A stretch of DNA of 64,000 nucleotides from an uncultured Lachnospiraceae bacterium (GTDB lineage: Bacteria; Bacillota; Clostridia; Lachnospirales; Lachnospiraceae), in contig CALWGV010000028.1 in assembly GCA_944380185.1 (NCBI GenBank), positions 38,796 through 102,795 of the forward strand, given 5' to 3'. Shown piece by piece: positions 37,084 to 57,634 of the stretch; the first letter of the stretch is position 1, and each line of letters opens with the position of its first letter. The notes under the pieces are model-generated. The model saw only the letters and a program-made list of their open reading frames with translations. It searched no databases and was not told the origin of the DNA. Both the position numbers and the translations under genes were made by a program.

Positions 37084-37380
37084 CTACCGGGCTGACTGGA
37101 AGCTGTTTTTGAGCTCCTCATCGATACTCTCAAAGGCCTGAGCCGAAGCTGTCGTGGCCTCACCTAAGGCTTCTACCAGCTCCGGAAATTGATCCAGACT
37201 CTCCTTCATGGTCATGTACATGTCATAGTAAGCATCCTGGGCAAGTCCATCCCAGCCATCGACAATTTCATTGATCTTGGTGTTGATGGCCGCGAGGATG
37301 TCCCTGAGATCTCCGGCGCTTCCGATCAGATCATTCCCCTGCGAGTGCAAAACCTCCGGTGACACTTTAATATTTGCCAT
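37084..37380 (-). CDS. WXG100-family protein (ESAT-6-like)
   Basis: The 98-residue protein has the two-helix WXG100 pattern with the turn IVDGWDGLAQDAYYDMY (Trp-Asp-Gly) between helices and EELKNSFQSAR at the end. These proteins are secreted as dimers by the EssC machine and are often needed for its activity. The N-terminal half is LHSQGNDLIGSAGDLRDIL. It is the last gene of the type VII operon. An AAAGGAGAAG ribosome site comes right after a hairpin (37394-37417), which may stabilise or process the RNA end. It is a structural or substrate protein. The secretion signal YxxxD/E is not obvious at the C-terminus. Confidence 0.9.
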   Translation of the reverse strand: MANIKVSPEVLHSQGNDLIGSAGDLRDILAAINTKINEIVDGWDGLAQDAYYDMYMTMKESLDQFPELVEALGEATTASAQAFESIDEELKNSFQSAR

Positions 37381-37393
37381 TTTCTTCTCCTTT

Positions 37394-37417
37394 CTTCATC
37401 CGTCCTTCCGGATGAAA
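37394..37417 (-). other. hairpin before the last WXG100 gene
   Basis: The arms CTTCATCCG and CGGATGAA pair around a TCCTT loop. It lies just before the ribosome site of the WXG100 gene and may act as an RNA processing or stability element. A second hairpin (CCTGA/TCAGG) is at 37426-37440. Confidence 0.5.
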
Positions 37418-37533
37418 GCTGCGGCCCTGATCCCCTCAGGGCATTTCTTAGTTTAATACAACAGGCGGCATAGCTGCCGCTAGGCTTCGGTTGTGCCGCA
37501 GTGCTTTTCATCATTTCGCCTCCGTCATATCCC

Positions 37534-37851
37534 TCAGTATTTCGTCTTTTCGATATGCTCTGCCGTCAGCTCTTCATACTGGCCGGCCGCCTCGGCGACA
37601 ACATCGGCAAGAGCCTCCAGCAGCCCGGCATATTTTTCTATATTCTCCTTCCAATTTATTTTGGTCATCTCGTGAAATTCCTTTCCCGCTCCGGTTGTCC
37701 AGCCCGAATCCGACAGCTCCTGCAGACATTCATCCAATCCGGCAGCCATATTGCGCAGCTCAACTGCGATCTGCCTGTATCGTCTGCCGTATTCCCTGAA
37801 GGAAGCCGCGTCAAAAGCCAGATCTGTATTGCCCTCATAAGCCAGTGCCAT
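37534..37851 (-). CDS. WXG100-like small protein
   Basis: The 105-residue protein has two helices around a SGWTTGAGKEFHEM turn, which looks like a WXG variant with the sequence Trp-Thr-Thr-Gly. A YEELTAEHIEKTKY tail with YEEL is close to the YxxxD/E export pattern. The start used is the ATG at 37849-37851 with GGGGGAAAG before it. The first 17 bases overlap the TPR gene. It could be a secreted partner of the WXG100 protein at 37084-37380, or an LXG-type chaperone. Confidence 0.78.
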   Translation of the reverse strand: MALAYEGNTDLAFDAASFREYGRRYRQIAVELRNMAAGLDECLQELSDSGWTTGAGKEFHEMTKINWKENIEKYAGLLEALADVVAEAAGQYEELTAEHIEKTKY

Positions 37852-39148
37852 GCTTTCCCCCCGCCTTTTCCCATTCCTTTTCCGCCAGATCTTTTTTCCC
37901 TTGAATCTGATAAATATCGGCCCGCACCAGATGAAGCTCCGCATCCGAAGTCTTCAGACTTTCCAGAAACTCCAGTATTTCCAGGGCCTTTTCATAATCA
38001 CCCAGGTCTTTTAAACACATGGCCCGGTAAAGATACAGATCGACTGCCGGCCGGTTTTCAGGCCGGTTCTCAAGAGATGCCAGGCGATAGATGCGATTGG
38101 CCTCCCTGTACAGTGTCTTCGCCTCCTCTGTCCTGCCCAGACACCGCAGGCAGAAGGGTCTGCAGTACAGGGCGGCATAATAATACGGACCATCCCTGTT
38201 TCCGCCGATAATCCTCTCCGCCTGCTGCCGGGCTTCTTCGTAGTTTTCATCCGCCAGGTACAGGTTCATCAGCAGGAAGTCCACTTCGCCGTCAGACTTT
38301 ATCTCCGCTTCCATCTCCAGGCATCGCTTAAAGGTCTGTATTGCCCTGTCAGACTGACCGGATTGCGCCCAGATCTTTCCCTCCAAAAGAGCAAGCGGGT
38401 ATCTGGCCTGGTCAAAATACTTCATTTTTTCTGCGCTGTTGATAAGCCGCAGCGCCTCCTCATCTCTCTTCGCCAGCGCAAGAGCCTTCGCATAATCACA
38501 GAGAAGCTCCACATCCTCCGGAAAGCGCTCCAGAGCTGCCTTTGCAAAGGTAACCGCCTCCTCGTGTTTTTCCCGAATAAGCAGAAGCTGGGTTTTTATG
38601 TGATATCCCTCAAAGGTTTCCGGTGATTTCAAAAGGAGCTCCTCCGCCGCCTCCTGAGCCCTGTCAAATTTTCCAAGCCTTATCCATGCGCTGATTTTTT
38701 TGATCATATAGTCTGGTCTCATCGGATTTTTGATACAGGCCTTCTGATAATACCGCAGCGCCATATCGTCATCATCCATATGCTCGTAGGCCATCCCCAT
38801 AAAAAACATCATTTCATCACTGTCATAGCCCTCATGAATCGCCCGATTGTAATTTTCCAGTCCCTCCGCAAGTTCATCGTTCATGAAGCAGGCGCTGCCG
38901 TACAGAAAATACAACCGTCCGCTTTTCCCGATACACAGCGCTTTTCTGTAGGCATTCTTTGCCTTCTCATATTCCTGTAAAGACATATAGAGATCGCCGT
39001 AATTTCTATAGCTGTCAGGCAGCTCCGGACAAATATCCATGGCCTGGTCAAACTTCTGCCCGGCCTCCCGTATCCTGCCGGCCACAAGAAGCATTTCTCC
39101 CTGTGCATTGAGATCCTGTGCCTCCAGACGTGCTTCTCCTATATCCAT
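37835..39148 (-). CDS. tetratricopeptide repeat protein
   Basis: The 437-residue protein is made of TPR units, for example EKAKNAYRKALCIGKSGRLY, then ALRYYQKACIKNPMRPDYMI and a YRAMCLKDLGDYEKALEILE unit. It has no signal or membrane segment, so it acts in the cytosol. In this locus it may gather substrates or the WXG proteins for secretion. The last 17 bases overlap the next gene. It could also be a general adaptor. No catalytic domain is present. Confidence 0.85.
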   Translation of the reverse strand: MDIGEARLEAQDLNAQGEMLLVAGRIREAGQKFDQAMDICPELPDSYRNYGDLYMSLQEYEKAKNAYRKALCIGKSGRLYFLYGSACFMNDELAEGLENYNRAIHEGYDSDEMMFFMGMAYEHMDDDDMALRYYQKACIKNPMRPDYMIKKISAWIRLGKFDRAQEAAEELLLKSPETFEGYHIKTQLLLIREKHEEAVTFAKAALERFPEDVELLCDYAKALALAKRDEEALRLINSAEKMKYFDQARYPLALLEGKIWAQSGQSDRAIQTFKRCLEMEAEIKSDGEVDFLLMNLYLADENYEEARQQAERIIGGNRDGPYYYAALYCRPFCLRCLGRTEEAKTLYREANRIYRLASLENRPENRPAVDLYLYRAMCLKDLGDYEKALEILEFLESLKTSDAELHLVRADIYQIQGKKDLAEKEWEKAGGKHGTGL

Positions 39149-39164
39149 ATCGATCCCGCCCCCT

Positions 39165-39743
39165 TTATTCTTCCTCGATAATCACCCGGAGAGGAGAGTG
39201 ATCCTCTATTTCCTTTACAAAATCAATATCCGGCTCGAGACGGGTGCTGAAATAGAGCATCCCTCTGTCCCAATGTCTGACCTTAACCGGTTCTGACAAG
39301 GCAAGTCCATTGCCGCAGCGATACCAGGCCGAATCACCCGCTCCATAAAAATGGATTCTCATTGACTGCCTCTTATAAGCGCATTTGGTTATCTGCGCAT
39401 ATTTCATCTTGTTTATCTCTCTGCGGACCTTTTTCCTGCCATAATGCCTTTCCGGCAGACAAAGGGTCAGACAGTCGTCATAAAACCGGAGCTCCATCAA
39501 AGAAGGGGTCCACTCCATTTTTTCCGTGCAGAAAAATCCCGCTGCCACCAGCAGCACCAGCAAAATTCTCGAAGGCCAGGACAGAGCAAAAACCAGATTG
39601 TCCTGAAAGACAAAGGATCCTGCCAGAATAATACCGGTTATCAGACCCGCCCCTATCTTCAGCGTTCGGCGGACCGCACTTGGCTCCCGCACCGGCAGCA
39701 GTACGGCCTCATTTGCCCTCAGTACATAATTTGGCTCGTCCAT
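39165..39743 (-). CDS. small membrane protein with PH-like tail (YcxB-like?)
   Basis: The 192-residue protein has two neighbouring membrane segments (about residues 29-48 and 58-73) and a C-terminal beta-rich domain (ELRFYDDCLTLCLPERHYGR, then YAQITKCAYKRQSMRIHFYG). This recalls YcxB-like proteins with a PH-type fold. Its start overlaps the end of the candidate effector gene by 25 bases and has AAGGAGG. The tight overlap suggests it is made with the effector, perhaps as its immunity protein, but this is a guess from position. Confidence 0.7.
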   Translation of the reverse strand: MDEPNYVLRANEAVLLPVREPSAVRRTLKIGAGLITGIILAGSFVFQDNLVFALSWPSRILLVLLVAAGFFCTEKMEWTPSLMELRFYDDCLTLCLPERHYGRKKVRREINKMKYAQITKCAYKRQSMRIHFYGAGDSAWYRCGNGLALSEPVKVRHWDRGMLYFSTRLEPDIDFVKEIEDHSPLRVIIEEE

Positions 39744-41143
39744 AGCGCCTCCTTCTGTCCCTCGGCAAAAGAAAAGATTTTTTTAATCTCCGCCCTCAGC
39801 CGTCCGCCCTTCGCAAACAAATCCGCTATGTCGCCGGCTGTAATATTTTCAGTGAAATCCCACCGTATCTGTCCGTCTTTGTCCTGGACCATTGCCGCCT
39901 CCGTACCGGCAACAGTAAAGACAGTAAGCCCCGGAAGCAGAACACTATTAACCGTAATCCGAAACACATTGCCCGCCGTAAAACCCTCCGACAGCAGTTC
40001 TCTGGGGAGGCTAATCAGATGCTTTAAGGAGGCGCACTTATCCCGCACACTTGAAAAATCAAAGAATTCTTTTTTCAAATTGCGTCCCAGATCCCAGAAC
40101 ATCTGTCTTCCAAACTCTCCGGCCCCTGCCCAGCCCCGCGCTCGGAATACTTCGCTTACGTCGTTGAGCTTTGTTCGGACAGCAGCCAGCGTTTCCCGAG
40201 AAAATATATCGCTCCAGGCGATATCACTTAATCGGGCCGCCTCTCCCGTAATCCACTTATATCCGTTTTTCAGCAGCTTTCCGGCCCCTCTGACTGCAAT
40301 AACAGCTGTGCATACCAGACTGACTGTATCCATCCTCGCGGCAAACTCATGGTAATAGGCATTATACCCATAATACTCTCCATCTGCCCCGAAAATGAAC
40401 GAAGAGCGCAGGAATTCCTGACAGCTGTCGATCTCTCCCCATCTTCTTCCCGTAGACGGATCACCCGCGCAGGCTATTTTTAGTCCCTGCCATTCGCTGA
40501 TGATGCTGCCCAAACCGTTGGATACGGCGATCAGACCGCTTAGCGTCCCGGCAATCACAAAGATAACCCCTCCGCCGCAGACAAAGGCCGAGACAACAGT
40601 AAGCACGCCAAGAGCAGTCTCCATCAGCCCTACAGTCGTTCCCTTTAAAAATTCCTTTCCGCCGCCGAAATTAAACTGCTCCTCGATCCATTCTCTGAAT
40701 CCCTTCCCCGCAGCCGCAACATCATCCCGTCTGTCACCCAGGAATCGCCCGGTCGCCGAGCCGTTCTCCATGGCCACAAAAAAGTAGCTGACTGCATTTA
40801 TAATCGTGCTGTTGTTTATCCCATGATTCTTCTTAAACGCCGCGGTCAGCTCCGAGACTTTGCTCCTCACCGTCTGATCTGTCTGCCGACATTGCTCCTC
40901 CAGCCGGGAGAGAGCCTGGGCATAGGCCATATACCGGTCTCTTCGGTCCCCCAGCTGAGACATCTTCTCCTTTATCTTCTGTGCACCTGCCGTCTCGCCG
41001 CAGCCGCACAGCTTCCGGTATACCCCGTCGCACAGAGAATTTCTGTATTGATCCAGTTTACCCGCCGCGGCCTCCGCCTTTTCTGCGGCATCTCTCAGAC
41101 TGCCATAGGATATTGCGGTCGCGGCTGTACTTATCTCTCCCAT
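39719..41143 (-). CDS. candidate type VII secreted effector
   Basis: I do not recognise the 474-residue protein as a known family. Residues 1-110 are helical with a pattern like WXG/LXG proteins (AAEKAEAAAGKLDQYRNSL). A hydrophobic stretch (about residues 175-225, with GVLTVVSAFVCGGGVIFVIA) could cross a membrane twice. The C-terminal 230 residues are mixed alpha and beta with no motif I can name. The gene lies directly after the YwqH-like gene and overlaps its end, which is the usual place of a secreted toxin such as YwqJ. Its ribosome site is weak (GAGAGG). Confidence 0.65.
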   Translation of the reverse strand: MGEISTAATAISYGSLRDAAEKAEAAAGKLDQYRNSLCDGVYRKLCGCGETAGAQKIKEKMSQLGDRRDRYMAYAQALSRLEEQCRQTDQTVRSKVSELTAAFKKNHGINNSTIINAVSYFFVAMENGSATGRFLGDRRDDVAAAGKGFREWIEEQFNFGGGKEFLKGTTVGLMETALGVLTVVSAFVCGGGVIFVIAGTLSGLIAVSNGLGSIISEWQGLKIACAGDPSTGRRWGEIDSCQEFLRSSFIFGADGEYYGYNAYYHEFAARMDTVSLVCTAVIAVRGAGKLLKNGYKWITGEAARLSDIAWSDIFSRETLAAVRTKLNDVSEVFRARGWAGAGEFGRQMFWDLGRNLKKEFFDFSSVRDKCASLKHLISLPRELLSEGFTAGNVFRITVNSVLLPGLTVFTVAGTEAAMVQDKDGQIRWDFTENITAGDIADLFAKGGRLRAEIKKIFSFAEGQKEALWTSQIMY

Positions 41144-41523
41144 CTCTCTTTCTCCCTCTCCTGCCAGTATCGGCTGTAATAGTAATCTCTGTCTTCTTCT
41201 GTCTCGTGCTTTTTTGCCCTTGTCCGCTCTATTTTTTCTTCCAGTTCCCGAACTGCCTCACTCAGTTCTGGATCGGCCGAAATGTCTCCCTCTCTGTCTT
41301 CTGCTGCTTCCCGGCCGCTGCAGGCAAATTCGGCGTTCCCGCGAATTCCCTGTTCTATGGCTTCATGCAGATCATCAAGCTTTCTGTTGACTGTTCCTGC
41401 CCCCTCTTGTACAACATCCCTCAGGCTGTTTAGGATCTCCGACAGCATCTGCTGATATTTTGCCCATTCCTCTGCCTCAGAAGCCTTCTGCTGATACAGC
41501 TTATAATACTCTGCACTGTTCAT
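41131..41523 (-). CDS. YwqH-like small protein (DUF5082)
   Basis: The 130-residue protein starts MNSAEYYKLYQQKASEAEEW and is almost all helical, with charged coiled-coil regions and a DRDYYYSRYWQEREKERWER tail. The N-terminal YKLYQQK block resembles DUF5082/YwqH proteins that precede LXG toxins in Bacillus and help their secretion. The ATG at 41521-41523 has GGGAG upstream. Its stop overlaps the start of the candidate effector gene. It is probably a chaperone or partner of that protein. Confidence 0.78.
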   Translation of the reverse strand: MNSAEYYKLYQQKASEAEEWAKYQQMLSEILNSLRDVVQEGAGTVNRKLDDLHEAIEQGIRGNAEFACSGREAAEDREGDISADPELSEAVRELEEKIERTRAKKHETEEDRDYYYSRYWQEREKERWER

Positions 41524-41539: not shown

Positions 41540-41875
41540 CTAACTCCACAAAGCCTTAACAAATTCCTGACGCAGCTTATCGTCCGCCGTCTCATACTGT
41601 GCCTGCGCATCGACAAGAGCGTCATAGATATCAAGCAATGCCTCGCCGAAATCGTCAATTTTGCGAACCAGGAGATTATACTGACTCTCAAACTCATTTC
41701 GGCCCCTGCCCACCCAATTCTCCTTGATCCTGTCTGTTATCTCGTGTACCTGCTCGCCGGTGTCTCTGTAAGCCGCCACAATTTCCTTTATTCTGCGATG
41801 CGCTTCATCGATCCTGACACTCTCAATGATCTCCCTCTGTCTGTCCTTCCTCTTCCCTGCCGCAGCTTTTCCCAT
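41540..41875 (-). CDS. WXG100-like protein (YwqI/DUF5344-like)
   Basis: The 111-residue protein has two helices with a turn IKENWVGRGRNEFESQYN (Trp-Val-Gly), a clear WXG motif. The N-terminus is basic (MGKAAAGKRKDRQRE). It precedes the YwqH-like gene and the candidate effector gene, as YwqI-type proteins do. It is probably secreted with or as a partner for the effector. AAGGGAG precedes the ATG. Confidence 0.85.
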   Translation of the reverse strand: MGKAAAGKRKDRQREIIESVRIDEAHRRIKEIVAAYRDTGEQVHEITDRIKENWVGRGRNEFESQYNLLVRKIDDFGEALLDIYDALVDAQAQYETADDKLRQEFVKALWS

Positions 41876-41949: not shown

Positions 41950-44900
41950 TCAGTCAAAAATTTTAATGCGAAAATACGTGCTTCCCCTGAATCGATACCC
42001 CATGGTGGAATCAAAGGTCACGTCTCGTTTTACCCTGCCGGGCACCTCAAACAGCCGGCAGTCGGCCAGATCTGCAAACACAATGCCCTGCCGCTCCTCC
42101 TTGACTATTTTTAATACATCGCAGGAGCTGTAATTCACCGGCTGGTTTTCCACTGCTGCTAAGAGCACAAAGCAGGGGGTGCCGGACGCATTTTTCAAAA
42201 CCCGGGCCAGATGCCCGCCAAGCAGCTTATCCGCACAGACTTTCCGGAAGACTTCCGTCCCGGCTATAATCAGCATTTGACAGGTCTCGTCTTTCCCCTC
42301 GCCATCAAACCCCCGCAGCGCAGCTTCACAAAATTCGCCTATCAGGCTGATACCACTCTTGGAATCTGACGCATATCGTCTGACAAAGCTGCGCGAAAGA
42401 AAAGGTGAAAGCTTTCTGCTCCTGTCGTCCGCAATCGAAACCTCCATGCCGTGCTTTGCGCCTGTCCGCGATTCGATCAGTGAGATCATCTTCAGAAGAT
42501 TGGCAACGAATCTGAACCGCTGATTCTCATCTCCCGAAAGTGCCAAAAAGCCGTCGGCAAAGACATTGATCGAGGTCAGCGATACAGTGGCATATTCCAT
42601 CCCTATGGGTAAGACTCCGGGAGCCCGAAACGCTCCTTCATCTGCCGTCAGCACCTCATTCAGGTACAGCCGTTCCGGGACCATAGGGATCCGCGCCGCC
42701 CTGCTCCTGCATTTTTTATTGCGGGCCCCGATAAAATCCATCAGTTCTCTGCTCCTGTCCGCCTCCCGTTCACCGCGCCCGACAATTGCCGCCTGATATT
42801 CCAAAATCCGTTTATCCTGTACAAACAATCCACGGCCGGGATTGCCGCCCGGCGTCCTCCTGCCGTATCCTAACAGGGCGCTGTATTCTCCTTCATCATT
42901 GCAGTTTAAGGCCAGCCTCCGGCTAAAATTGGCCTGAGTGCGGTAATTGAGGGCGCTGGAAGCGGCGGCGGTGACTACAAAAGAAATACCTGCCCCCAGA
43001 GCTTCGCGGGTCATCACGCCTATTTCCTCCGCCTGTTCGGGAAAATATTCGCGAAAGGCGGCCACATTATCAATGGCAACAACGATAAGCGGCATAGCCT
43101 CATAGCCCGCTTCCAGATAGGCGGCATAGCTTCCCACTCCTCTGTCCGCCAGAATTTTCTTTCTCCCGAAGATGAGATCATTGAGCATTCGAAAAAGATT
43201 TCTGCACTTTTCTTCTTCTCCTGCCATCACCACTCCGCCCACATGAGCGCTTTCCTCAAAAATCCGAAGCATCATGCTGCCGCAGTCGACAATATATATG
43301 TTTACCTGCTCTGTCGTATATCTGCGTATCAGACCGTAGAGAATCGTCTGCAGCAGGGTAGATTTTCCTGTCTGGGCAGAGCCGACGATATAGATATTTT
43401 CCTTCCAGGGCTCCAGCCAGACGGTTTCCTGGAGCTGTCGTCCCGGATCATCATATATGCCGGCCGGCACGCTGAGCCGTCCCTCCTGCCGATCCGGCAA
43501 TTCATCCGCGCAGATTCTGTCGCACAGCGGCGGCAGACAGATTCCGGGAAGCCTTTCTATCCCCTGCCGCCTGCAATAGTCGCTCACATAAGTGACAATG
43601 GCTTTGAGCTGAGTGAGACTGCTCTCTTTTTGCTCACTTCCTCTGTTGGTGTACTTCAAGGTCCTCTTTCCCCAAAGATTCCGCTCATATATAACATAAA
43701 ATTTTTCCCGCTTTTCTTCTTCCTCCGGCACCGGCGCCCCGCTGTAGGCCGACTGGAACAGCGCAAAAACTTCATTGTTTCCCACTTGCAAGTAGGCCCG
43801 CCCCGGCTCGACGATCTCCGCCGCCAGCGGCGTTTTGATCATCTCGCTGCTGTCCTCCTTGGTCTGTACCTTCAGGCAGAGCCGAAAACGGGAGTTGGAC
43901 CAGATCTGAGCGTCCACCACACCGGCAGGCTTCTGTGTTGCCAGGATCAGATGGATTCCCAGCGTACGGCCGATACGGGCCGCTGAGATCAGCTCTCTCA
44001 TAAAATCCGGATATTCCTGCTTAAGCTGGGCAAATTCGTCCACGATGATAATCAGATGCGGCAGCGGTATGCGGCTTCTTCCGCTCCGGTAAAGCTTCAT
44101 GTAGTCATCAATGTGATTGACGCCCGCCCGCGAAAATATTTCCTGCCGTTTAAAGAGCTCGGCTTTGATGGAGAGAAGAGAGCGATCTATCTCTCTGCCG
44201 TCAATATTGGTGACAGTCCCCAAAAGATGAGGCAGCTGGCGGAATTGATTTGCCATCCCTCCCCCTTTAAAGTCAATGAGGACAAAACCCGCCTCATACG
44301 GGTGAAACAAAGTCGCCATCGACAGGATATATGTCTGCAGCACTTCCGATTTGCCGGACCCTGTCGTGCCGGCCACCAGGCCATGGGGTCCATGAGCTCC
44401 GGTCTTATCCCCGATGTCCAAATAAACCGTCTGATTCTTAGCCCTGACACCGATAGGCGCCGCAAGGCTCTGCCAGCACGCCGACGAGCCCCACCTCTCC
44501 TGCAGATTCAGATCCTGCACCGTCAAAATATCCAGCAGCTCAAACAACGTTATGTTTTTGGTCAGTTCTCCCGCCAACGCTATCTCATCCACCTGCACCG
44601 CCCCCAGCCTCCAGGCGGTAAAAGCCGCCGTCTTATCCGAAATAGCCGGGAAAATAAAGCTCTGCTGCACTTTTGCGTTTTCCGTCTCGAAAATGCTTCC
44701 TCTGTCTGAGGCCTTTAGCCGAATCAGCTGCCTGCAGCCCCAGGGCAGAAATTCTTCATGTTCCGCAAAGAATACAAAGGTAAATCCATAATCCGCCCCG
44801 TTTTTGACATAGCGCGCGAGAGGATGGGTACTGACAGACGGAACATCCGTGACAAACACCACATAGTTTTCTCGGGAAACTTCCCGGTTTTTCCCGTTTT

Positions 44901-47874: not shown

Positions 47875-47905
47875 TTCCACTCCTTTGCTGCAGACGCCCA
47901 GATAC

Positions 47906-48796: not shown

Positions 48797-51700
48797 GGTT
48801 TCTTTCTCCGTCGGCGAAGGAGGCACACGACGAGCAGAAAGAGAATTCCCAAAGCCGCTGCTGCACCTACGCTTCCCCAGAACAATCGCCGATTGGCATA
48901 CCAGCGAACCATAAAATTGGTGGAGACCGTCACCTTGTCCTGAAACCCATAAGCCCTTCCCGCACGCCAGATGTCATCCGATGTGTCAGCCACGTTTCCT
49001 GCCAGATCCGTCGCTACAAGGCGAACGGTCTGCACATTTTCATCCTCTCTCAAGGTGAACCGGCCGGTATAGCTGTGTTTGTTTTCCCCGAAATCCGTAA
49101 CCCGCTGAAAAAGCTCTCCATTTACCATGACCTCCACACAGGCCAGGCCCCCTTCGTCCACAATGGTATACGGTATATCCAAGCTGGCCGCATCAACGAC
49201 CTCTTTTTCCAAATTGGCAATGTTGCGGATCTCAGGCGCCGTGGTATCCACGGTAAAGCTCAGGACATCCACCACTCTCTCTCCTCTGCTATCCATGGAA
49301 TTCTCCGGAACACTGGCGGACCGGTTTTTTCCGGAATCCGCCGTGGAGTAGGCAGAGCTTAAGGATATCCGATAGACCCCATCCTCAGCAAAATTGTCCG
49401 CCGCAATGGTATAGACATAGCGGTACCAGTCCAGCGCGTCTGATGTTTCGGCTCCCGTGGCAGAGGAAACCACCTGATAGTCCGCATCCACAGCTTCTCC
49501 GTCGCGAGTCACCAAAAGTTGCAGTGATCCGTCCAGCAGGGGGCCCGGACTGTACTCTGCAATCACCAAATCCTGTGTGATCGCAGGACCTTTATCGCCG
49601 GAGAAAGTGATATACCGGCCGCCATCCTGAATCAGGGAGATCAAATAGTCATCATATACGTAGACCGATCCAAACCGATTCAGTGCAAAGACAATCTCCT
49701 CTGTCTCCTCATTGCCGGCCAGGTCGCGCACGGTGACAATCAGCCTGTAAATGCCGTCGTTTTCCTCCGCCCGTGCAAAGGTATCGTAGGTTCCGCCGCC
49801 TCCTCTGTGGTTTTCCTCTACCGAAGGGATAAATTGATCCGTCACGTCCGCATTTTTTTCACCCAGGCGTGTTCGAAGCAGCCTAATCTCACAGGAATCA
49901 TAATATCGGTCGCCAAAGGTAAGCTCCGGGATCACCTGACGGCTGTAGACGCAGCCGTTTTCCACTCCGCCGATCGTCAAAGAGGGTATCGTCTGATCGA
50001 TGACAAAGTTTTGGCCTGCCGTACTCTCGCCGTAATCTGTTCCTTCGCTTTCATTGGACGCCAGATCTGCAGCCGTCACCTCCAGACTGTATTCCCCGTC
50101 CTCGCTGTAGGCCAGGCGCGCCGTATGCACATCTCCTTCGCTGGTCCAGCGAACTTCCGGAACTGCCACTGCTTCGCCGTCCCGATCGGCCGTCTGGGTA
50201 AGGCTCACCCGGTCTGCATCAAAATTATGTTCCGTGATCACAACCGTCGCCGTGCGGGCCTCAGAAAAGTACCTGCCATTTTTTGCGTCATTATTACTGT
50301 AATTTACCGAGACAACGGGAGGCGTCCGGTCGATCGTAAACCGCACAGGAGCCGCACTGTTTCCATAATCCGCCTCGCCGGACATGTTTCCCGCCATATC
50401 CCGGCAGGCAATATGAAATGTGTAGTCTCCGTCCTCACTATAAGTAAGGGCGGCTGTAAAACGAGTGTCGTCCAGATTGCCGGTGCCCTCCGCGCGGGTC
50501 CATTGGCTTAGCACGGGAATTGCTCCGTCCGCGCCGGCAATGGAGAGCTGTACATTCTCCGGAAGGAAATTTCTCTCTGTCACAGTGATAAAAGCTGTCC
50601 TGGGCTTGTTGAAGTAAAGCCCTCCTGCTGCTTCATTGTTGTCATAGCTTACCTCGACAATCGGCTGCGTGATGTCGATGGCGATATTTCTCTGTTTCTG
50701 GCTGTAATTCAGAGCATTGTCCTGCGCATAAATCAGAATCTGCACATCATTGCTGTTGTTGAGCTCGCTGTCCACGACAAATTCTCCGGACCACTCCCTC
50801 AAAAGCTCCGCCCGTTCCGGCTCCCTGTCATCAGCCTCATACAGCGTCCCCGCCTGCGTCTCAACTCCCCTGTTCAGTATCTGGTAGGCGATGGTGCGCA
50901 GGCCGGAATAAGCTCCGTTTGCAACAGGCTCCTCCACCCTTACCGTCACCGGGACATCTCCCCCGTAGAGTTCCGCGCCGCCGCCCGAATCCCCCAGTAT
51001 CATCGTAACGCCGAGAGGCCCACTCTCTTCAGCCTGAGGCGACAGATGGTCCACAGTCAGACCGTCCGTGCCGAGATAAGCATAGTTGCCGGCAGGGTCG
51101 GTGATCCGAAAATAAAATACAGACTGTTCGTCTTCGGTAAGCTCCAGGCGCTCAAAGGGCTGCCATTCTGCCACCCGATCCAGCCTCTCTGCGCTGAGCC
51201 GCTCTATCACATCCTCCGGCGTCTTTGCCTGCACCTTATAATACTCCACCGCCGCCAAGAACGCAGAGGTCTCATCCTCAAACTCACCGGTAATCACTAT
51301 CGCTTCCCGTGAGGCAAAGCCAAAAGTCAATCCTGACGGCAGGCCGTCCCAGACCCTCTCTCCTCCCTCGGCCGCTGCGGCCCTCACCCTGCCGAAAGGA
51401 ACCGTTGTGTCCACAGTGAAGATGAAGGGGGCTTTTGAATCCCCGGTATCCGGCTCTCCGCTGTCGTTACCGGCCATGTCCCTGCAGGAGACAGACCAGC
51501 TGTAATTGGCGTCCTCCTCGAAGGAGAGCACAGCGGTATGCCTCGCTCCATCCGGATCTATGGCATCCTCCTCGGTAGCCCACTCCCCCAGGCTCCACGC
51601 TCCCTCCACCGGCACCCCTGCCGCATCTGTCGCCAAAACCCGTACCGCTCCCGCCGCCTTATCAGGGTCGAAATGCGCGCTTCTCTCCCTGATCTCCACC

Positions 51701-53427
51701 AGCGCCCTGCGCGGCGCATCAAAATAACCGTTGCCGTTATTGTCGCTGTTGTTGTCAAAGGTGATCCTGATCTGCGGCGGCGTGATATCGATATCCAGCA
51801 AGACTTTCTCCACAGTCTGATTGCCAGCCCGGTCGGCGGCAGTCACCTCCACAATCACCTGACTGGAGTTATTGTCCTGCGCCTTCACCACTATTCCGGT
51901 TTTGACAATATTCTGAATCGGATTTCCATCCTCATAGCTGTACAGAACACCAGAGTCCGTCTCCTCTTCTTTGCAGGTGACGCGATACGCCACCCAGCCG
52001 ATCCCTGAGCATTCTCCGGGGTCCTCCGCCGAGATATCCACGCTGACGTCGCCGCGGTAAATATCGTTCTCATTGGTCCCAGAGGGAACCAGCGATATTC
52101 CGGCCGCAGTCCCGTCCATAACAATCCGCAGAGGCGTATCGCAGGTTACGCCCGCCACCTCATGCCAGGCTGCCGTCCACTCCTCCTGCGCTTGATAGTA
52201 GAGACAAATCCGCCCTATATCCGTATCCTTCGTCACGGTTATCTCCCGAACATTCCTGCCCCCTCCGATCAGTCGATTCTCCAGGTCATAGAGCTGCATA
52301 CCGTTTTTTTCCGTCGTAAAGACAGCCTCACCGTCCCCGGCAAAGACATAGATCAGTCCTTCCGCCCGCAGGGCGTCTTCTCTATTGAGGGAAAAATCAT
52401 CCAAAGACGCCGCGAGAATCTCTCCGAAGCGAACTTCTATTTCCTTGTGCTCGTCGATATCCTCCAGCACAAAATAGATTTCCTCCGCTGCCCCCTCAGC
52501 GCAGACTTCCTGATCCTTTCCATTTACCTGAACGCTCTTTACCGTGTATCCTTCATCGGGAGTCAGCGTCACTTTGCTCGTCCCGCCATAGTCCACCCAT
52601 GGCTCCTCCACAGAAATCGTGCCATGCTCCGCGGGCTTGGCCGTCACGCGATACCGATTGGGCGCAAAAGACACCTCTATCCAATAATTCTGGTCTGCGG
52701 CAAACTCTCTCTCATAAACCTCATTCCGGTCAAAATTCTCTCCGGTTACCCCCTCGTCGGCCACTCCATTGATCATCACCTTTTCCACCCGATGATAATC
52801 CTCCGGGTCCGCCGTGATCTTTACCTTTTCTCCCTGATCTGCCGTGACAAAGCCGCTGCGGCCACCGTCGAACAGGCTGAGCTCCGGCTCAGCCTCTACT
52901 TCCCCCTGTTCTCCCCAGCTCACGGAAATGGTATGCTGCCGGATAAAGTCCGCTCCGATCTGCATGTCTGACGTAATAACAATATCCGTCTCATATTCAG
53001 CGATCCTGTCATCAAACTGCAGCTCCTTTTCCCCCACGATGACTGCCCCGATCCGGTAATTCTCATGCGCCCGAACCAGAACCGTTATCCGCGTGTTTTC
53101 CCGGACGGTAAGTGATGTCCCTTCTTTGCCATCTGCCTTTAAGACAATCTCACCGCCTTCCAGCTCCTCCGATGCGGCAACTGTGTATACGGCGGCTTCC
53201 GAGGTTTCCTCCTCTGATGTTTCCTCGGCCGTCTCCTCCGTGGTCTCATCTATGGTTTCCTCCACGGTTTCCTCGGCCGTCTCTTCTGTCTCCCATATGA
53301 CTTCTGTGACTTCCTCCGGCGCACCCATAGCTTCCTTTCCTGCAAAAGGCACCAAAATCATCATTGCCAGCGCGCACACCCCCATTGCCGCAAGCCCTCT
53401 CATCCATTCCCTTATTCTTTTTTTCAT
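48793..53427 (-). CDS. large Ig-like-repeat surface protein of the type VII locus
   Basis: The 1544-residue protein has a signal peptide (about 1-35, with GVCALAMMILVPFAGKEAMG), a Thr/Glu-rich stretch (about 40-80) and a long external part of beta-sandwich repeats. A final membrane helix (FWGSVGAAAALGILFLLVVC) and a basic tail (RRRRKKP) close it. A repeated motif, DNN followed by YF, PR or AR, and ER or EH, occurs in three places (codons near 51664-51765, 50562-50655, 50220-50310). It has no sortase motif. It lies inside the type VII operon and may be a surface scaffold or receptor for secreted substrates. The function is not known. Confidence 0.82.
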   Translation of the reverse strand: MKKRIREWMRGLAAMGVCALAMMILVPFAGKEAMGAPEEVTEVIWETEETAEETVEETIDETTEETAEETSEEETSEAAVYTVAASEELEGGEIVLKADGKEGTSLTVRENTRITVLVRAHENYRIGAVIVGEKELQFDDRIAEYETDIVITSDMQIGADFIRQHTISVSWGEQGEVEAEPELSLFDGGRSGFVTADQGEKVKITADPEDYHRVEKVMINGVADEGVTGENFDRNEVYEREFAADQNYWIEVSFAPNRYRVTAKPAEHGTISVEEPWVDYGGTSKVTLTPDEGYTVKSVQVNGKDQEVCAEGAAEEIYFVLEDIDEHKEIEVRFGEILAASLDDFSLNREDALRAEGLIYVFAGDGEAVFTTEKNGMQLYDLENRLIGGGRNVREITVTKDTDIGRICLYYQAQEEWTAAWHEVAGVTCDTPLRIVMDGTAAGISLVPSGTNENDIYRGDVSVDISAEDPGECSGIGWVAYRVTCKEEETDSGVLYSYEDGNPIQNIVKTGIVVKAQDNNSSQVIVEVTAADRAGNQTVEKVLLDIDITPPQIRITFDNNSDNNGNGYFDAPRRALVEIRERSAHFDPDKAAGAVRVLATDAAGVPVEGAWSLGEWATEEDAIDPDGARHTAVLSFEEDANYSWSVSCRDMAGNDSGEPDTGDSKAPFIFTVDTTVPFGRVRAAAAEGGERVWDGLPSGLTFGFASREAIVITGEFEDETSAFLAAVEYYKVQAKTPEDVIERLSAERLDRVAEWQPFERLELTEDEQSVFYFRITDPAGNYAYLGTDGLTVDHLSPQAEESGPLGVTMILGDSGGGAELYGGDVPVTVRVEEPVANGAYSGLRTIAYQILNRGVETQAGTLYEADDREPERAELLREWSGEFVVDSELNNSNDVQILIYAQDNALNYSQKQRNIAIDITQPIVEVSYDNNEAAGGLYFNKPRTAFITVTERNFLPENVQLSIAGADGAIPVLSQWTRAEGTGNLDDTRFTAALTYSEDGDYTFHIACRDMAGNMSGEADYGNSAAPVRFTIDRTPPVVSVNYSNNDAKNGRYFSEARTATVVITEHNFDADRVSLTQTADRDGEAVAVPEVRWTSEGDVHTARLAYSEDGEYSLEVTAADLASNESEGTDYGESTAGQNFVIDQTIPSLTIGGVENGCVYSRQVIPELTFGDRYYDSCEIRLLRTRLGEKNADVTDQFIPSVEENHRGGGGTYDTFARAEENDGIYRLIVTVRDLAGNEETEEIVFALNRFGSVYVYDDYLISLIQDGGRYITFSGDKGPAITQDLVIAEYSPGPLLDGSLQLLVTRDGEAVDADYQVVSSATGAETSDALDWYRYVYTIAADNFAEDGVYRISLSSAYSTADSGKNRSASVPENSMDSRGERVVDVLSFTVDTTAPEIRNIANLEKEVVDAASLDIPYTIVDEGGLACVEVMVNGELFQRVTDFGENKHSYTGRFTLREDENVQTVRLVATDLAGNVADTSDDIWRAGRAYGFQDKVTVSTNFMVRWYANRRLFWGSVGAAAALGILFLLVVCLLRRRRKKP

Positions 53428-53446: not shown

Positions 53447-53884
53447 TCACAGATATTTATCCCCGGTATGGATGATCAGGACCTCATCGATCATCACCAC
53501 GGGAAGCTGTGCCGTCTCTGTCAAATCTATAGGTTCCGTTTCCTTTGGCTCCACCTGCTGCCCATCTGACGTAGCCGGGCCTGTCCGGCATTCTCTGCCC
53601 CTCCTCCCGGATGCAGGTTTTTCCTCCCCCTCTCCCTGCGCCTGCGGTATATCCGCCGTCACTCTGCCCCTCACTGCATTGACCGTGCTGACCCGGTAGG
53701 TTTTGCGTCCGGACTGCCTGTTGACCGCCCGCATTTTCTCTATGGCCTTTCGCGCCGTGCGCCCTGTCAGATCGCCGATCACAGCAGGTATGCGAAAGAA
53801 AAACCAGAAAAACACAGTCAGCCCCAGGCTCATCAGCGCCGCAGACAGAGCGAAAAAAGAAAGACTCTTTAAAGTTTCTGCCAT
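53447..53884 (-). CDS. small membrane protein of the type VII locus
   Basis: The 145-residue protein has one N-terminal membrane segment (about 8-32, with SAALMSLGLTVFFWFFFRIP) followed by a basic and then Pro/Gly/Glu-rich region. The end (AQLPVVMIDEVLIIHTGDKYL) is more ordered. I do not recognise a family. It lies between the kinase gene and the Ig-like protein gene with short gaps, so it probably works in the secretion machine. GGAGG precedes the ATG. Confidence 0.75.
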   Translation of the reverse strand: MAETLKSLSFFALSAALMSLGLTVFFWFFFRIPAVIGDLTGRTARKAIEKMRAVNRQSGRKTYRVSTVNAVRGRVTADIPQAQGEGEEKPASGRRGRECRTGPATSDGQQVEPKETEPIDLTETAQLPVVMIDEVLIIHTGDKYL

Positions 53885-53887
53885 CTT

Positions 53888-55540
53888 CTACTCCTCCCCG
53901 TGCCTGCGTTTCTCTACCTCGCTGTATTTGGCGCAGATATTGGCGACAAAAGAATCATAGGTCTCTTCCATTTCTTCCCGCAGCTCATCCACATAGGCAA
54001 GAGTGGACGTAAGCCCCTGCGCCTGCCTTTTCACGGTCTCCATCCGCCCAATCACCTCCTGCCGGCCAACCCCCACTCCCGCCAGGTATTCCGCCTGGTC
54101 GTTTAAAAAAAGCATGGTCACATAGCAGAGCGAAATTCTGTCGTAATTGGCCTCCCTGCCGGATGCCGCCTCTGCCTCCGCCAGCGCTGCATCGATCTGC
54201 CCCAAAAGCTGGCGGTAGTCCTCCAGCGAATGTTCCGAAGCGGTGCTCTGATAGGTCATAAAACGGCAGATCATCACATAACAGGCGGCGATTCCCTTTT
54301 CCGCAAATTCCGCCTCTGCCTCTGCAGCAGCCAGAAAAAAATTCTGCGCATTTACCGCACGGACCTTAAAGGAGCCGTCGTATTCGGAAAAATAAAGCTT
54401 CCCCATGTCATAGTACAGGCAGGCAACCTCCGGATCCGACCGGTTTAAATCTGCTGCGTGGTTTTCAATGACATTGCCGACCCGCACAATTTCGTTATTG
54501 TCGACCTGGTGGTTTCTGCAGTAGTCAATCAGCCTTTGATATGCCTGCGGCCTCTCCGGATAGATTTCCACCGCGTCATAATACCGTGCAGGATCGGAAC
54601 CGGAGATATTGACCTCATAGTCCTGATTATTCATTCTGGCGGCAGCCAGACCAAACCCTGCCCCGGCTATTCCCAGGGCAGCCGTCATGCCTGCACAGAC
54701 GAGGAAGACGGCCAGCTTGATTGTCTGTCTTCTCTTATACCCTCCGGTAATCAGCTCCGGATGCTCCAGATCATACAGTAGCTCACCGCAGTTCTGATAG
54801 CGGTTCTCCAACGCCGGCTCCACACAGCGGCCGACAATCCGTTCGATACCCTCGGACAGCTCTGGATTCCAGTACCTCACCGGCGCATAGATCTCTCCGC
54901 TTCGCGGGTCTATCCCTGTCAGAAGATGATACATGGTCATGCCCAGGGCAAAGATATCTGAGCGGGGATCCGTCTGTCCCGCGTACTGCTCCGGCGGGGC
55001 GTATCCACGAGTACCCAGCACTGTGGTATCGGCAAGATTCTGTTCCTTATACTCTCTGGCAATGCCAAAATCAATGATCTTTATATTTCCCTCCGGCTTC
55101 AGCATCACATTGGCCGGTTTCATGTCCCGGTAGATGATGGGCGGCTTCTGTCCGTGCAGATAGCCAAGGACATCGCAGAGCTGCTTTGCCCAGCCGATGA
55201 CCAGTTTTTCCGGCTGCGCGCCGTATTCCCTCAATATTTTGTCCAGAGACTCTCCTTCGATATAGTCCATAACCACATAGACCGTCACCCCATTGTCAAT
55301 AATATCCACAATGCGCGGCAGGGCGGGATGATCCAGCCTCTTCATCAGATCCGCTTCGGCCATCAGACTGTTTACCACAAGTTCATCGTTTCGTCCGGTC
55401 CCTTTTTTGCGGATCTCCTTGACTGCCCACTGTTTATTCAATCGCCTGTCCATGGCCAGATAGACGACCGACATGCCTCCTCGGCCGATTTCCTTCAGCA
55501 CCTCATATTTGCCGTCGATGACCATTCCCACCCGGGCCAT
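53888..55540 (-). CDS. membrane Ser/Thr protein kinase with EssB-like layout
   Basis: The 550-residue protein has a full Hanks-type kinase domain (1-260): a Gly-rich loop IGRGGMSVVYLAM, the ATP-binding Lys41, the catalytic loop YRDMKPANVM with Asp139 and Asn144, and DFG at 157-159. An APPEQY segment follows. One membrane helix is at 274-301 and an external helical domain of about 250 residues comes after. That order (kinase fold, membrane helix, external helices) is that of EssB/YukC, but EssB is a pseudokinase. Whether this protein replaces EssB or only regulates the locus is not shown. The gene follows the PP2C gene. Confidence 0.9.
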   Translation of the reverse strand: MARVGMVIDGKYEVLKEIGRGGMSVVYLAMDRRLNKQWAVKEIRKKGTGRNDELVVNSLMAEADLMKRLDHPALPRIVDIIDNGVTVYVVMDYIEGESLDKILREYGAQPEKLVIGWAKQLCDVLGYLHGQKPPIIYRDMKPANVMLKPEGNIKIIDFGIAREYKEQNLADTTVLGTRGYAPPEQYAGQTDPRSDIFALGMTMYHLLTGIDPRSGEIYAPVRYWNPELSEGIERIVGRCVEPALENRYQNCGELLYDLEHPELITGGYKRRQTIKLAVFLVCAGMTAALGIAGAGFGLAAARMNNQDYEVNISGSDPARYYDAVEIYPERPQAYQRLIDYCRNHQVDNNEIVRVGNVIENHAADLNRSDPEVACLYYDMGKLYFSEYDGSFKVRAVNAQNFFLAAAEAEAEFAEKGIAACYVMICRFMTYQSTASEHSLEDYRQLLGQIDAALAEAEAASGREANYDRISLCYVTMLFLNDQAEYLAGVGVGRQEVIGRMETVKRQAQGLTSTLAYVDELREEMEETYDSFVANICAKYSEVEKRRHGEE

Positions 55541-55564
55541 AGCACTTCCCCCGCTTTTCTCTTG

Positions 55565-56344
55565 TCAAAACACCCGGACCAGAATCACGGAGATATTATC
55601 CCTCTCTCCCCGCTCCTTGGCCCGGCTGATCAGACAGCGCGCCCTCTCTCCCAGCTTTCCCTTGTCCGACAGGGCGAAGGGCTCCAGCGTTTCCGCCATC
55701 TCCCCGTCATTCAGCTCATGGCACAGGCCATCTGAGCAAAGCATATAAATCCCTGCCCGGATCTGTCCGCAGATCACCTGGGGCTCCACAATACGCGAGC
55801 TTCCTATGCACTGGAGAAGCAGATTTCTGCGCCGGTCCCTCTTTGCCTGCTCTGCCGAAAGTCTGCCCCGGCTTATCTCCCTGGCCACATAGGTATGATC
55901 CTGCGTCAGCTGCCGCATGGACGAACCAAGCTCATAGATGCGGGAGTCCCCCACATGGGCGATCACATACCGTCCGCCCGCAAGCAGCAGGCCGGAAAAC
56001 GTTGTCCCCATCTTCTCCGCCCCTGTCCCGCGGCCGTACTCAGATATTCTGGCATTCAGCCGCTTCAGCATCACTGTCCATCTGTTTGCAATCTCCTGCA
56101 TATCCATCCGGACAAGGTCCGCAGGTGAAAGCCCTGGCATCAATTCCTGCTTAAACCAGCGTGAAAAAGATCGAACGGCTATGGCGCTGGCCAACTCTCC
56201 TCTGGCCAGGCCTCCCATACCGTCGCAGACTGCTGCCAGCAAAATCTCCTCCTCTCCCACTCGTCCATGCTGAACCAGAATACTGTCCTGATTGGTCTCG
56301 CGAAAGTCTCCCTTGTCCGTCTCCGCCACAGCCATATACCTCAT
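55565..56344 (-). CDS. PP2C-type protein phosphatase
   Basis: The 259-residue cytosolic phosphatase has the PP2C motifs RETNQDSI, CDGMGG, AHVGDSRIY, CSDGLCHEL and ERDNISVILV, with the acidic residues that hold the metal ions. It probably reverses the phosphorylation made by the kinase encoded next (53888-55540), on FHA-bound targets of the locus. The ATG at 56342-56344 has AGGAGG six bases upstream. Its gene follows that of an FHA protein. Confidence 0.93.
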   Translation of the reverse strand: MRYMAVAETDKGDFRETNQDSILVQHGRVGEEEILLAAVCDGMGGLARGELASAIAVRSFSRWFKQELMPGLSPADLVRMDMQEIANRWTVMLKRLNARISEYGRGTGAEKMGTTFSGLLLAGGRYVIAHVGDSRIYELGSSMRQLTQDHTYVAREISRGRLSAEQAKRDRRRNLLLQCIGSSRIVEPQVICGQIRAGIYMLCSDGLCHELNDGEMAETLEPFALSDKGKLGERARCLISRAKERGERDNISVILVRVF

Positions 56345-56445
56345 GCCGCTCCTCCTTGCCCATCCTCTTTCCACTGGGTGCAGGCTCTTCTGCTGTCAGA
56401 TTTTCCCCTCTTATCAGACATCTCTCAAATCAGGCCTCTCTCAAA

Positions 56446-57438
56446 TCAGACCTCTCTCAAATGGAACACAAATTCTTCGTTGGCCAGACAGAGCCTGTCT
56501 CCTTCATGAATCTCAAATTCCATCCGGACCGGTATTTTCTGTCCGTTGACATAAGTGTGATTGCGGGAATTGAGATCCTTTACAAAATAGCGGTCATCCC
56601 GCGCAATGATATCTGCATGGCTTCTGCTGACAGCGATATTGTTGTTCACAAAATAATCCACATAGCTTTTCTCTTTGCCCAGGCGATACACCGGTTTGTC
56701 TATGACGATCATCTCTCCTGTAAGACAACGGTGCAGGACTGGAAGGAAAGCGGCCGCATGTCCGCCGGCGGACCATTCTTCATTCAGTAGCCCTGTCTCT
56801 TCATCCCCAGGCTCTGCCAGCAGACCTGTCTCTTCGCCTCCCACCCCTCCTTCCCGGCTGGGGTCTGGCTGTACCGGCTCACCTGCTGTACGCTCTGCCG
56901 CTCTTGCCTCACCGCGGACAAATCTTTCGATCCGGCGGACATCGAGGGGAGCAGTGCTTTTCAGCAGCTTGGCAAAATCTGACATTATCCCGGCATCCTG
57001 CTCTTGCGCCGGCCGCGCCGAGTATAGAATCGATGCCAAAAACTCCGACGGTTTAGGCGACTTCTGCTTGCCTGAGAGAGGAAGGTAGAGAAACACTACC
57101 TCTTTTGTCACCTCATTAAAAAATGTACAGCGGATATCCATGACCAGATGAGAGAGCGGCAGTCCGCTTCCCTGCAGCCTGCCCATGGCGGCCCCGGTCT
57201 GCCCTACAATAGACAGAAAATCCCCGCCCGTCACAGGACTCTTCAGACGATCCCGCAGACTTATCCCAATAGGTCCCCGGAATCTGGCCGCCCGCTTTCT
57301 TGCTTTCTCCGGCATAAAAAAGCCGTCCAAATGCATCTGTGCAAATCGCCCCAGCTCCCCTCTGTCCACTGTCTCGCCAAGGGCTGTTTTCACTTTTACC
57401 AGTAGCCGATAATCTTTGATCCGGGCAGTGACCCTCAT
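56446..57438 (-). CDS. FHA domain protein, first gene of the type VII operon
   Basis: The 330-residue protein has an N-terminal region (LLVKVKTALGETVDRGELGR, then FFNEVTKEVVFLYLPLSGKQ) and a C-terminal FHA domain (SRSHADIIARDDRYFVKDLN, then SRNHTYVNGQKIP). A repeated GGEETGLL/GDEETGLL block near residues 210-225 may hold threonines for the locus kinase. The ATG at 57436-57438 has GGAGGAGGG upstream. It is the first gene behind the promoter at 57607-57634, followed by the phosphatase and the kinase genes. It probably acts as a phospho-sensor of the secretion machine. Confidence 0.88.
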   Translation of the reverse strand: MRVTARIKDYRLLVKVKTALGETVDRGELGRFAQMHLDGFFMPEKARKRAARFRGPIGISLRDRLKSPVTGGDFLSIVGQTGAAMGRLQGSGLPLSHLVMDIRCTFFNEVTKEVVFLYLPLSGKQKSPKPSEFLASILYSARPAQEQDAGIMSDFAKLLKSTAPLDVRRIERFVRGEARAAERTAGEPVQPDPSREGGVGGEETGLLAEPGDEETGLLNEEWSAGGHAAAFLPVLHRCLTGEMIVIDKPVYRLGKEKSYVDYFVNNNIAVSRSHADIIARDDRYFVKDLNSRNHTYVNGQKIPVRMEFEIHEGDRLCLANEEFVFHLREV

Positions 57439-57483
57439 GCTGTTCCCTCCTCCCAAACCAAAAGGATATTTTTCCTATTTTCA

Positions 57484-57508
57484 GTGCAGGCAAGCCTGCG
57501 GGCTGCAC
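57484..57508 (-). other. hairpin in the type VII operon leader
   Basis: Two overlapping pairings are possible in the leader: GTGCAG with CTGCAC (whole span) and GCAGG with CCTGC (inner). They cannot both form fully. It may be an attenuator or a translation control element. No known riboswitch pattern was recognised. Confidence 0.4.
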
Positions 57509-57606
57509 TTTCGGCGTCATATTTTACGTTGCCTTTTCATCGGGATTATTAACGATAGGTCAAATCAGACTGATTCAGAACAGATAAAAAAGATAGGTAT
57601 ACATAT

Positions 57607-57634
57607 ATTGTACATGATTTTATCAGCTTTGCAA
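57607..57634 (-). promoter_or_regulatory. promoter of the type VII secretion operon
   Basis: On the minus strand TTGCAA (57629-57634) and TACAAT (57607-57612) are separated by 16 bases. The start would be near 57600, so the leader is about 160 bases long. The area is AT-rich, unlike the genes on both sides. Confidence 0.65.

Follow-up and report, generated by a model that had tools for sequence, protein, structure and literature searches.

A type VII secretion operon without detectable EsaA, EssA and EssB in an uncultured Lachnospiraceae bacterium, and its possible control by phosphorylation

Organization of the operon

This study concerns a type VII secretion system (T7SS) operon of an uncultured Lachnospiraceae bacterium and the proteins in it that may take the place of EssB. 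The window, i.e. the whole stretch of DNA analysed, comprises 64,000 nucleotides of contig CALWGV010000028.1 (assembly GCA_944380185.1, positions 38,796 to 102,795 of the forward strand). Sixteen minus-strand genes form one tight 20-kb operon in it, with intergenic gaps of -56 to 153 bases; the starts of two small genes were slightly refined after the gaps had been counted. An EssC/EccC-type ATPase and WXG100 proteins, the combination by which a T7SS is generally recognized, are both present. Component letters (H, V, J and so on) were assigned by likeness to the descriptions in PMC11217815 (Garrett et al. 2024), not to its sequences. The genes, with transmembrane abbreviated as TM, are as follows.

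56446-57438, minus strand: J1, a divergent DUF6382-like domain (0.01), a linker with two copies of EETGLL, and an FHA domain (Pfam, 5.2e-13)
55565-56374, minus strand: F, a PP2C/PPM phosphatase, TseF/TsfF-like by description (PP2C_2, 4.4e-12)
53888-55540, minus strand: D, a Ser/Thr kinase with one TM helix and a helical external domain, TsxD-like (Pkinase, 3.9e-47)
53447-53884, minus strand: H, a short protein with one TM helix and a long tail in the cytoplasm, resembling TsdH/TseH by description (TM scan)
48793-53427, minus strand: I, a 1544-residue Ig-repeat protein, TsdI/TseI-like (Big_13, 1.7e-13; TM scan)
47906-48826, minus strand: J2, DUF6382 and FHA domains (Pfam, 2.2e-7 and 5.3e-19)
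46780-47880, minus strand: V, P-loop ATPase-like, TsfV-like by description (AAA_31, E 0.012, below cut-off)
46436-46756, minus strand: B, EsaB/YukD-like by sequence and position, without a Pfam scan of B
41950-46491, minus strand: C, the EssC ATPase, with a degenerate N-terminal FHA region (TIGR03928, 1067 bits; cut-off 778)
41540-41875, minus strand: WXG100-like partner, Lap-like (WXG profiles built in this analysis, and sequence)
41131-41523, minus strand: second small helical partner, Lap-like, start inferred at MNSAEYY
39719-41143, minus strand: LXG-like protein, hydrophobic in a central stretch, candidate substrate (Pfam gave no LXG match)
39165-39743, minus strand: small protein with two TM helices, encoded next to the LXG-like gene, candidate for an immunity or partner role
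37835-39148, minus strand: TPR protein without a TM helix (TPR_2, 3.2e-28; EccA1 N-terminal domain, 1.3e-5, below cut-off)
37534-37851 (open reading frame 37534-37944), minus strand: A2, WXG100 family, start inferred at MALAYEG (Pfam, 4.6e-8)
37084-37380, minus strand: A1, WXG100, EsxA/TsxA-like (Pfam, 2.9e-15)

Pfam and NCBIfam scans and, for EsaB, sequence and position agree with a first-pass annotation of the sequence, which had placed EssC, EsaB, WXG100 proteins, a PP2C phosphatase, a membrane kinase, two FHA proteins and an Ig protein in one minus-strand operon. The extent given there is confirmed except at the 5' end, where the first gene starts at 57438 and not at 57634; H had not been listed. 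The description of V as MinD-like has its basis in the weak AAA_31 match below cut-off and in relatives with a normal P-loop, seen in an alignment of eight. In V itself the P-loop is degenerate in the window (AACEEAGRTTT) and in the congener G065 (SACDSIARTAV), and intact in the congener G123 (SACGGVGKTTA). F matches the Stp1 family at 1.2e-51, below the cut-off of that equivalog (NCBIfam). In a hydropathy scan, I has a hydrophobic, signal-peptide-like N-terminus and a C-terminal TM helix. The EsaB-like gene overlaps the start of EssC, whose N-terminal FHA match is weak (Pfam, 5.8e-4) and lacks the SRxH/SxNG signature, the hallmark of FHA domains.

EssB, EssA and EsaA are not found with the operon

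The first-pass annotation had reported that no EsaA, EssA or EssB is encoded in the operon, and profile searches extend this finding to whole assemblies. Neither EssB (PF10140) nor EssA (PF10661) had a match in the bacterium's own genome, of which the assembly is 84% complete, or in the congener G065, which is 98% complete. EsaA (TIGR03929) was searched in five genomes; there was no match in the own genome, in G065 or in the genome of locus L104, and the remaining two, both Clostridium, gave matches below cut-off. Thus, none of the three proteins that define T7SSb was found in the own genome or in G065.

Among 120 genomes of the family, 31 have EssC matches and 11 have EssB matches at 0.001, seven of them above cut-off; all seven are also in the EssC survey. 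In 65 loci with V next to EssC, no EssB was found beside V within the flanks.

The gene order recurs in further genomes

In a survey of gene order around EssC, as proposed in the first-pass annotation, 10 genomes carry J1-F-D-H-I-J2-V-B-C in full on a single contig. Besides the window, these are G065, G123 (locus L104) and seven of nine extended loci, namely Clostridium folliculivorans, C. sartagoforme, Ruminococcaceae HV4-5-B5C, L107, L143, L149 and L151. EssC of G065 runs off the contig end. In C. polynesiense, J1-F-D-H-I-J2 and J2-V-B-C end on separate contigs, and in Rossellomorea aquimaris (L206, L105) the locus is split, F-D-H-I lying about 265 kb from J2-V-B-C-J1 on the same contig. Of seven genomes of the genus searched with I, three have a match, namely the own one, G065 and G123, and the operon is present in both G065 and G123. 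Full-length D was recovered at 2.9e-185 or better in 10 of the 12 genomes searched with the D profile, and D shows the highest identity among the operon genes compared with congeners (72.5 and 73.5%, versus 52-62% for the EssC pieces).

At class level, 204 of 391 genomes match V at 1e-10. In many of them the match is confined to the P-loop half, and these are probably ParA/TadZ-like proteins other than V; V counts were therefore restricted to loci adjoining EssC. After removal of the duplicates L104, L109, L115 and L162, a B profile match is present in all 65 V loci and J in 62. The kinase, H, I and F are seen in 27, 16, 28 and 16 of them, respectively, which are lower bounds because the flanks extend to 10 kb at most.

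The search for EssC relatives yielded at least 588 stretches and 568 relatives, of which the best 80 were kept; C. acetobutylicum and C. felsineum, the named T7SSf references, fell outside these 80. In a 31-row EssC tree the window belongs to a 10-row clade (support 100/99), in which V is present in eight rows and unseen in two, and this clade is separate from the seven-row EssB clade. In a 98-row quick tree the nearest kin of the window are L104, from an uncultured Lachnospiraceae bacterium, Rossellomorea aquimaris, C. folliculivorans and L107, whereas L119, which has V, lies outside the main V group. The presence of V requires 14 changes over all rows of that tree, because many loci end before V would show, and a single change when only labelled rows are considered.

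The membrane kinase

According to the first-pass annotation, the kinase consists of a kinase fold, one membrane helix and external helices, in the order of EssB, and retains its catalytic residues. The residues read from the sequence and an AlphaFold model (predicted local distance difference test, pLDDT, 84.8; predicted template modelling score, pTM, 0.53) agree with this description. Lys41, Glu62, Asp139, Asn144 and Asp157 of the DFG motif are kept, and the activation loop reads DTTVLGT.

The further proposal that D is an active version of EssB is not supported. The kinase domain is nearest to PknB/Stk1 according to NCBIfam and Foldseek, the 50 best matches of the latter being filled by kinase domains. 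The external domain matches that of EssB with an hhalign probability of 0.2-0.4%, compared with 0.1% for reversed decoys; at the level of sequence profiles it is unlike the EssB domain, the outcome that the first-pass annotation had named as refuting its proposal, and it lends no support to D as the EssB equivalent. The external-domain profile matched 53 Protein Data Bank sequences, none of them an EssB chain; the best match was 1.6e-9, and the best matches cover mainly one 35-residue stretch. One weak match is left between the full D profile and EssB, located around the membrane helix (1.7%, p 0.029). The external domain shows a weak likeness to TPR, at 31.7% between its profile and a TPR profile. 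Among the external domains of 13 D members, Pfam reported TPR_11 in two and Sel1 in three, whereas that of the window matched no TPR-like family.

The DUF6382 domain of J2 and its relation to EssB

A closer sequence relative of EssB is suggested by J2. A profile of 64 DUF6382 domains from J2 proteins matches an 11-row profile of the EssB pseudokinase domain with an hhalign probability of 94.0% (p 1.5e-7, 161 columns), and the reciprocal comparison gives 93.2%. For the same two profiles the probability does not exceed 0.3% with reversed decoys or 14.7% with other families; the DUF6382-EssB pair scores 51.7, and the best of 100 column-shuffled decoys 21.5. Restricting EssB to the eight rows from the family of the window leaves the probability at 93.5%, and a smaller test of six EssB rows against full-length J2 gave 39.9%. 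J2 matches kinases at 46.0% in one direction, with the catalytic loop in register, and at 18.7% in the other; the J1 and J2 profiles match each other at 99.3%. In the AlphaFold model of J2 (pLDDT 89.6, pTM 0.72) the elements of DUF6382 follow the order strand-strand-helix-strand-strand-helix-helix-strand-strand-helix, an order that suits a kinase-like fold.

Several observations weigh against this relation. With the three EssB rows from Bacilli alone the probability falls to 3.4% (p 0.013), the DUF6382-like domain of J1 matches EssB at 0.3%, and the 11 EssB rows include the same gene twice (L003, L059). A search of Protein Data Bank sequences with the DUF6382 profile returned no EssB and one weak, unrelated match. 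The best 50 of 1995 Foldseek matches of whole J2 are dominated by FHA domains and accordingly speak neither for nor against a kinase-like fold of DUF6382.

Taken together, a relation between the DUF6382 domain of J2 and the EssB pseudokinase domain is supported, although not proved, by the profile comparisons. Because DUF6382 matches EssB and the external domain of D does not, J2 rather than D would be the counterpart of EssB by sequence. J2 does not have the TM helix and external domain that EssB-family proteins combine in one chain: hydropathy indicated no TM helix in J1 or J2, and J2 ends in its FHA domain. DUF6382 is given no function in the parts of PMC11217815 cited here, where the DUF6382-FHA protein is component J. 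In Bacillus subtilis the pseudokinase domain of EssB (YukC) copurifies with the FHA region of EssC, apparently without phosphorylation (PMC9600267).

Threonine motifs and the FHA signature

FHA domains prefer a fixed residue at position +3 of a phosphothreonine. A T-x-x-L motif, scored as T[TEGASQ][VIAL]L, was counted in the operon proteins and compared with 1000 shuffles. Homologues of H have a TM helix in common, a GRTARK-like box is present in 12 of 22 and an HTxE/D box at the C-terminus in 14 of 22, and the connecting tails vary; for the motif counts the copies of L107, L110, L130, L143 and L151 were replaced by longer ones (that of L143 by L204, cut at its edge), and among the copies without the HTxE/D box one is edge-cut. 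The H tails contain 60 T-x-x-L sites, distributed over 21 of the 22, whereas shuffling gives a mean of 2.5 and a maximum of 9. In the J1 linkers there are 48 sites, in 14 of 19, versus a shuffle mean of 1.7 and a maximum of 6. The flanks of the motif in both proteins are mostly acidic, on either side. Counts do not rise above background in C, V, I, F and the LXG proteins, and lie within the shuffle range in TPR proteins (22 versus 11.3, maximum 25) and J2 linkers (9 versus 3.3, maximum 10).

At least two acidic motifs within 60 residues were found in 27 of 8303 open reading frames scanned. These comprise 13 H and seven FHA proteins, four unassigned frames, and one each labelled A2, I and kinase. 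In the window, the J1 linker carries its two EETGLL copies and H ends in IHTGDKYL. Locus L039 encodes at 11612-12940 a kinase domain, hydrophobic helices and an H-like tail ending in THTDEVL in one protein, next to a second kinase gene.

The distribution of the FHA signature complements these counts. SRxH is found in 54 of 62 J2 and S[RN]xH in 18 of 19 J1, whereas SRxH/SxNG is absent from all 64 EssC of V loci examined, the window included. The seven T7SSb EssC also lack SRxH, and among seven other EssC of the family two have SRxH and three SxNG. The idea put forward in the first-pass annotation, that secretion is tied to phosphorylation with FHA proteins as the readers, thus gains indirect support from the motifs of H and J1 and from a signature that most J1 and J2 carry and that is lost in EssC.

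A proposed phosphorylation switch and its alternatives

The reading preferred here, to which a probability of roughly 55% is assigned, is that of a non-canonical T7SS wired by phosphorylation, in which a switch of D, H/J1 and FHA domains would dock an EssB-like domain on EssC. D would sense through its helical external domain and phosphorylate the acidic T-x-x-L threonines, both in the J1 linker and in the tail of H. Reading of the phosphothreonines would fall to the FHA domains of J1 and J2, and F would remove the marks. J2 would thereby carry its EssB-like domain to the membrane and dock on the FHA region of EssC, in parallel to EssB in T7SSb, where docking apparently proceeds without phosphorylation. 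Since docking of J2 would depend on phosphorylation, assembly or activity of EssC could be switched. J1, with motifs and an FHA domain in one protein, could also switch itself, as GarA and OdhI do. V may act as a placing ATPase, and I may be an envelope-spanning stalk in place of EsaA, as PMC11217815 proposes for TsdI. Within this scheme the job of EssB might be split, the active sensor kinase providing the membrane and outside part and the soluble pseudokinase-FHA protein J2 being recruited to EssC only upon phosphorylation of H and J1; this part is more tentative and is held at somewhat below even odds.

A number of points count against the switch. The strict motif is absent from H of the window, which has only TETAQL, and from 5 of the 19 J1 linkers. 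The motif was fixed after inspection, and many of its copies are tandem repeats (e.g. J1 of L202 and H of L135), so that the sites are not independent. The P-loop lysine is gone from V of the window. The kinase is unseen in most of the 65 V loci within their flanks, and so is H.

It is conceivable that the T-x-x-L stretches do not serve as phosphosites and reflect neutral, low-complexity repetition in disordered tails, since tandem duplication expands some of them and H of the window does without the strict form. On the other hand, many tails, and two different proteins, have the acidic core in copies that are not tandem repeats, C, V, I, F and the LXG proteins show no more of it than background, and the activation loop of D itself contains DTTVLGT; the neutral explanation is judged quite improbable. 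An alternative closer to the first-pass annotation is that D is an active core part doing the structural job of EssB. Its cytoplasmic kinase fold, single TM helix and helical outside domain resemble EssB in topology, its catalytic residues are kept, a weak match around the TM helix and the first external helices is detectable, and an EssB-like reading is in print for TscD (PMC11217815) and for TsxD in comparison with TraF (PMC13037476). Yet the external domains taken alone score little above reversed decoys, the D profile leans weakly towards TPR, and the EssB-like domain sits in J2. A structural role of this kind for D therefore seems unlikely.

The kinase, phosphatase, H and FHA proteins could, finally, form a regulatory cassette for expression or envelope homeostasis that is merely co-transcribed with the T7SS. 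In an Enterococcus T7SSb, transcriptional activation depends on a kinase, as told in PMC11217815, and in Rossellomorea F-D-H-I lies far from J2-V-B-C. However, J2 is located between I and V-B-C in 10 genomes, the Pfam scans of the operon proteins scanned revealed no DNA-binding domain, and the EssB-like domain in J2 argues against a mere cassette, which is accordingly considered improbable.

Kinases, phosphatases and FHA proteins are listed in the literature on non-canonical T7SS, and no proposed substrate or docking site was met in the cited parts of PMC11217815, PMC13037476 and PMC9600267. The T-x-x-L motifs name likely phosphosites and make the idea of regulation by phosphorylation testable peptide by peptide and deletion by deletion, and the relation between DUF6382 and EssB offers an answer to what became of EssB.

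Genes after EssC and surroundings of the operon

The run of WXG-like protein, helical partner, LXG-like protein, small TM protein, TPR protein, A2 and A1 follows EssC in the window and in G123; in G065 it is spread over two pieces of one contig, and similar runs occur in several distant loci. The LXG-like protein is 42% identical to its G123 counterpart. Because its place in the run is kept, it may belong to the core of the system and not to the variable or polymorphic toxins.

Directly upstream of the operon, 57713-63730 encodes a 2005-residue protein that combines three stretches of lamin-tail domain with a metallophosphatase domain, an Ig-like domain and a C-terminal TM helix. Downstream, at 32090-34358, lie a CdaA-like gene (DAC, 6.3e-44; CdaA_N) and a YbbR-like gene, probably a pair for synthesis of cyclic di-AMP. 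The region 7393-24562, with YfhO, a large glycosyltransferase and two DUF2142 membrane proteins, is perhaps devoted to cell-surface polysaccharide. G065 has a second, different EssC locus on contig C52 (L035), which includes a separate PP2C and kinase as well as several genes of WXG100-like proteins.

Comparison with known systems

Eight T7SS types, c to j, have been described beside T7SSa and T7SSb; they lack EsaA, EssA and EssB and carry differing sets of D, F, J (DUF6382-FHA), H, K and I, or V, an AAA ATPase with a TadZ-like receiver domain (PMC11217815). TscD has an EssB-like topology with an intact active site, and regulation of some types by phosphorylation is put forward as a possibility (PMC11217815); TsxD kinases other than TscD have a bitopic arrangement very similar to that of the EssB-like type IV secretion protein TraF (PMC13037476, 2026). 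Because both ideas are found in these papers, neither the missing parts nor the involvement of a kinase is new.

T7SSb of Bacillus and Staphylococcus shares EssC, EsaB and WXG100 proteins with the window, and its EssB pseudokinase resembles DUF6382 of J2. The window differs in that EssB, EssA and EsaA are not found and that an active-looking kinase, a phosphatase and FHA proteins are present.

T7SSf resembles the window, by description, in A, B, C, F, J and V, in the weak phosphothreonine motif of the EssC FHA domain and in its occurrence in Clostridia (PMC11217815). As in T7SSf by description, V of the window is located among J, B and C genes. Published T7SSf lacks the kinase, H and I, and its J has two TM helices (PMC11217815), whereas the two J proteins of the window have none and D is present in the operon, standing beside H-I-J2-V-B-C in further genomes as well. 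One possibility suggested by these data is that T7SSf loci lacking a kinase are reduced or split forms.

T7SSe shares A, A2, B, C, D, F, H, I and J with the window by description. It differs in that no V is listed, K is listed and the phosphothreonine motif of EssC is kept (PMC11217815); it has two short TM proteins, H and K, where one was found in the window, named H by description and possibly corresponding to K. T7SSe-like loci of the family, with a kinase and FHA proteins and no V, fall in a separate EssC clade. In T7SSj the external domain of D is of the TPR type; F, I and J are present, as is a short protein with a single TM helix, called K there and H here, but neither V nor H is listed and the EssC FHA motif is conserved (PMC11217815).

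A distant parallel to the proposed switch is the type VI secretion system of Agrobacterium, in which a membrane kinase, a phosphorylated membrane protein and an FHA reader act on a secretion machine: as told in PMC11217815, the phosphorylated protein binds the FHA protein and secretion is activated. That machine is unrelated, and the switch in the window is inferred from sequence alone.

With A1, A2, B, C, D, F, H, I, J1, J2 and V, the window appears to fit none of the ten published sets when these are compared by description, since it combines V with D, H and I. Its EssC belongs to the V-marked, T7SSf-like clade, and the kinase, H and the Ig protein are known from T7SSe and T7SSj. The combination would be an eleventh arrangement beside T7SSa to T7SSj, found in Lachnospiraceae, Clostridium and Oscillospiraceae and, in split form, in a Rossellomorea. 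The operon is thus ordinary as a non-canonical T7SS and unusual in its mix of components, in the EssB-like domain of J2 and in its threonine motifs.

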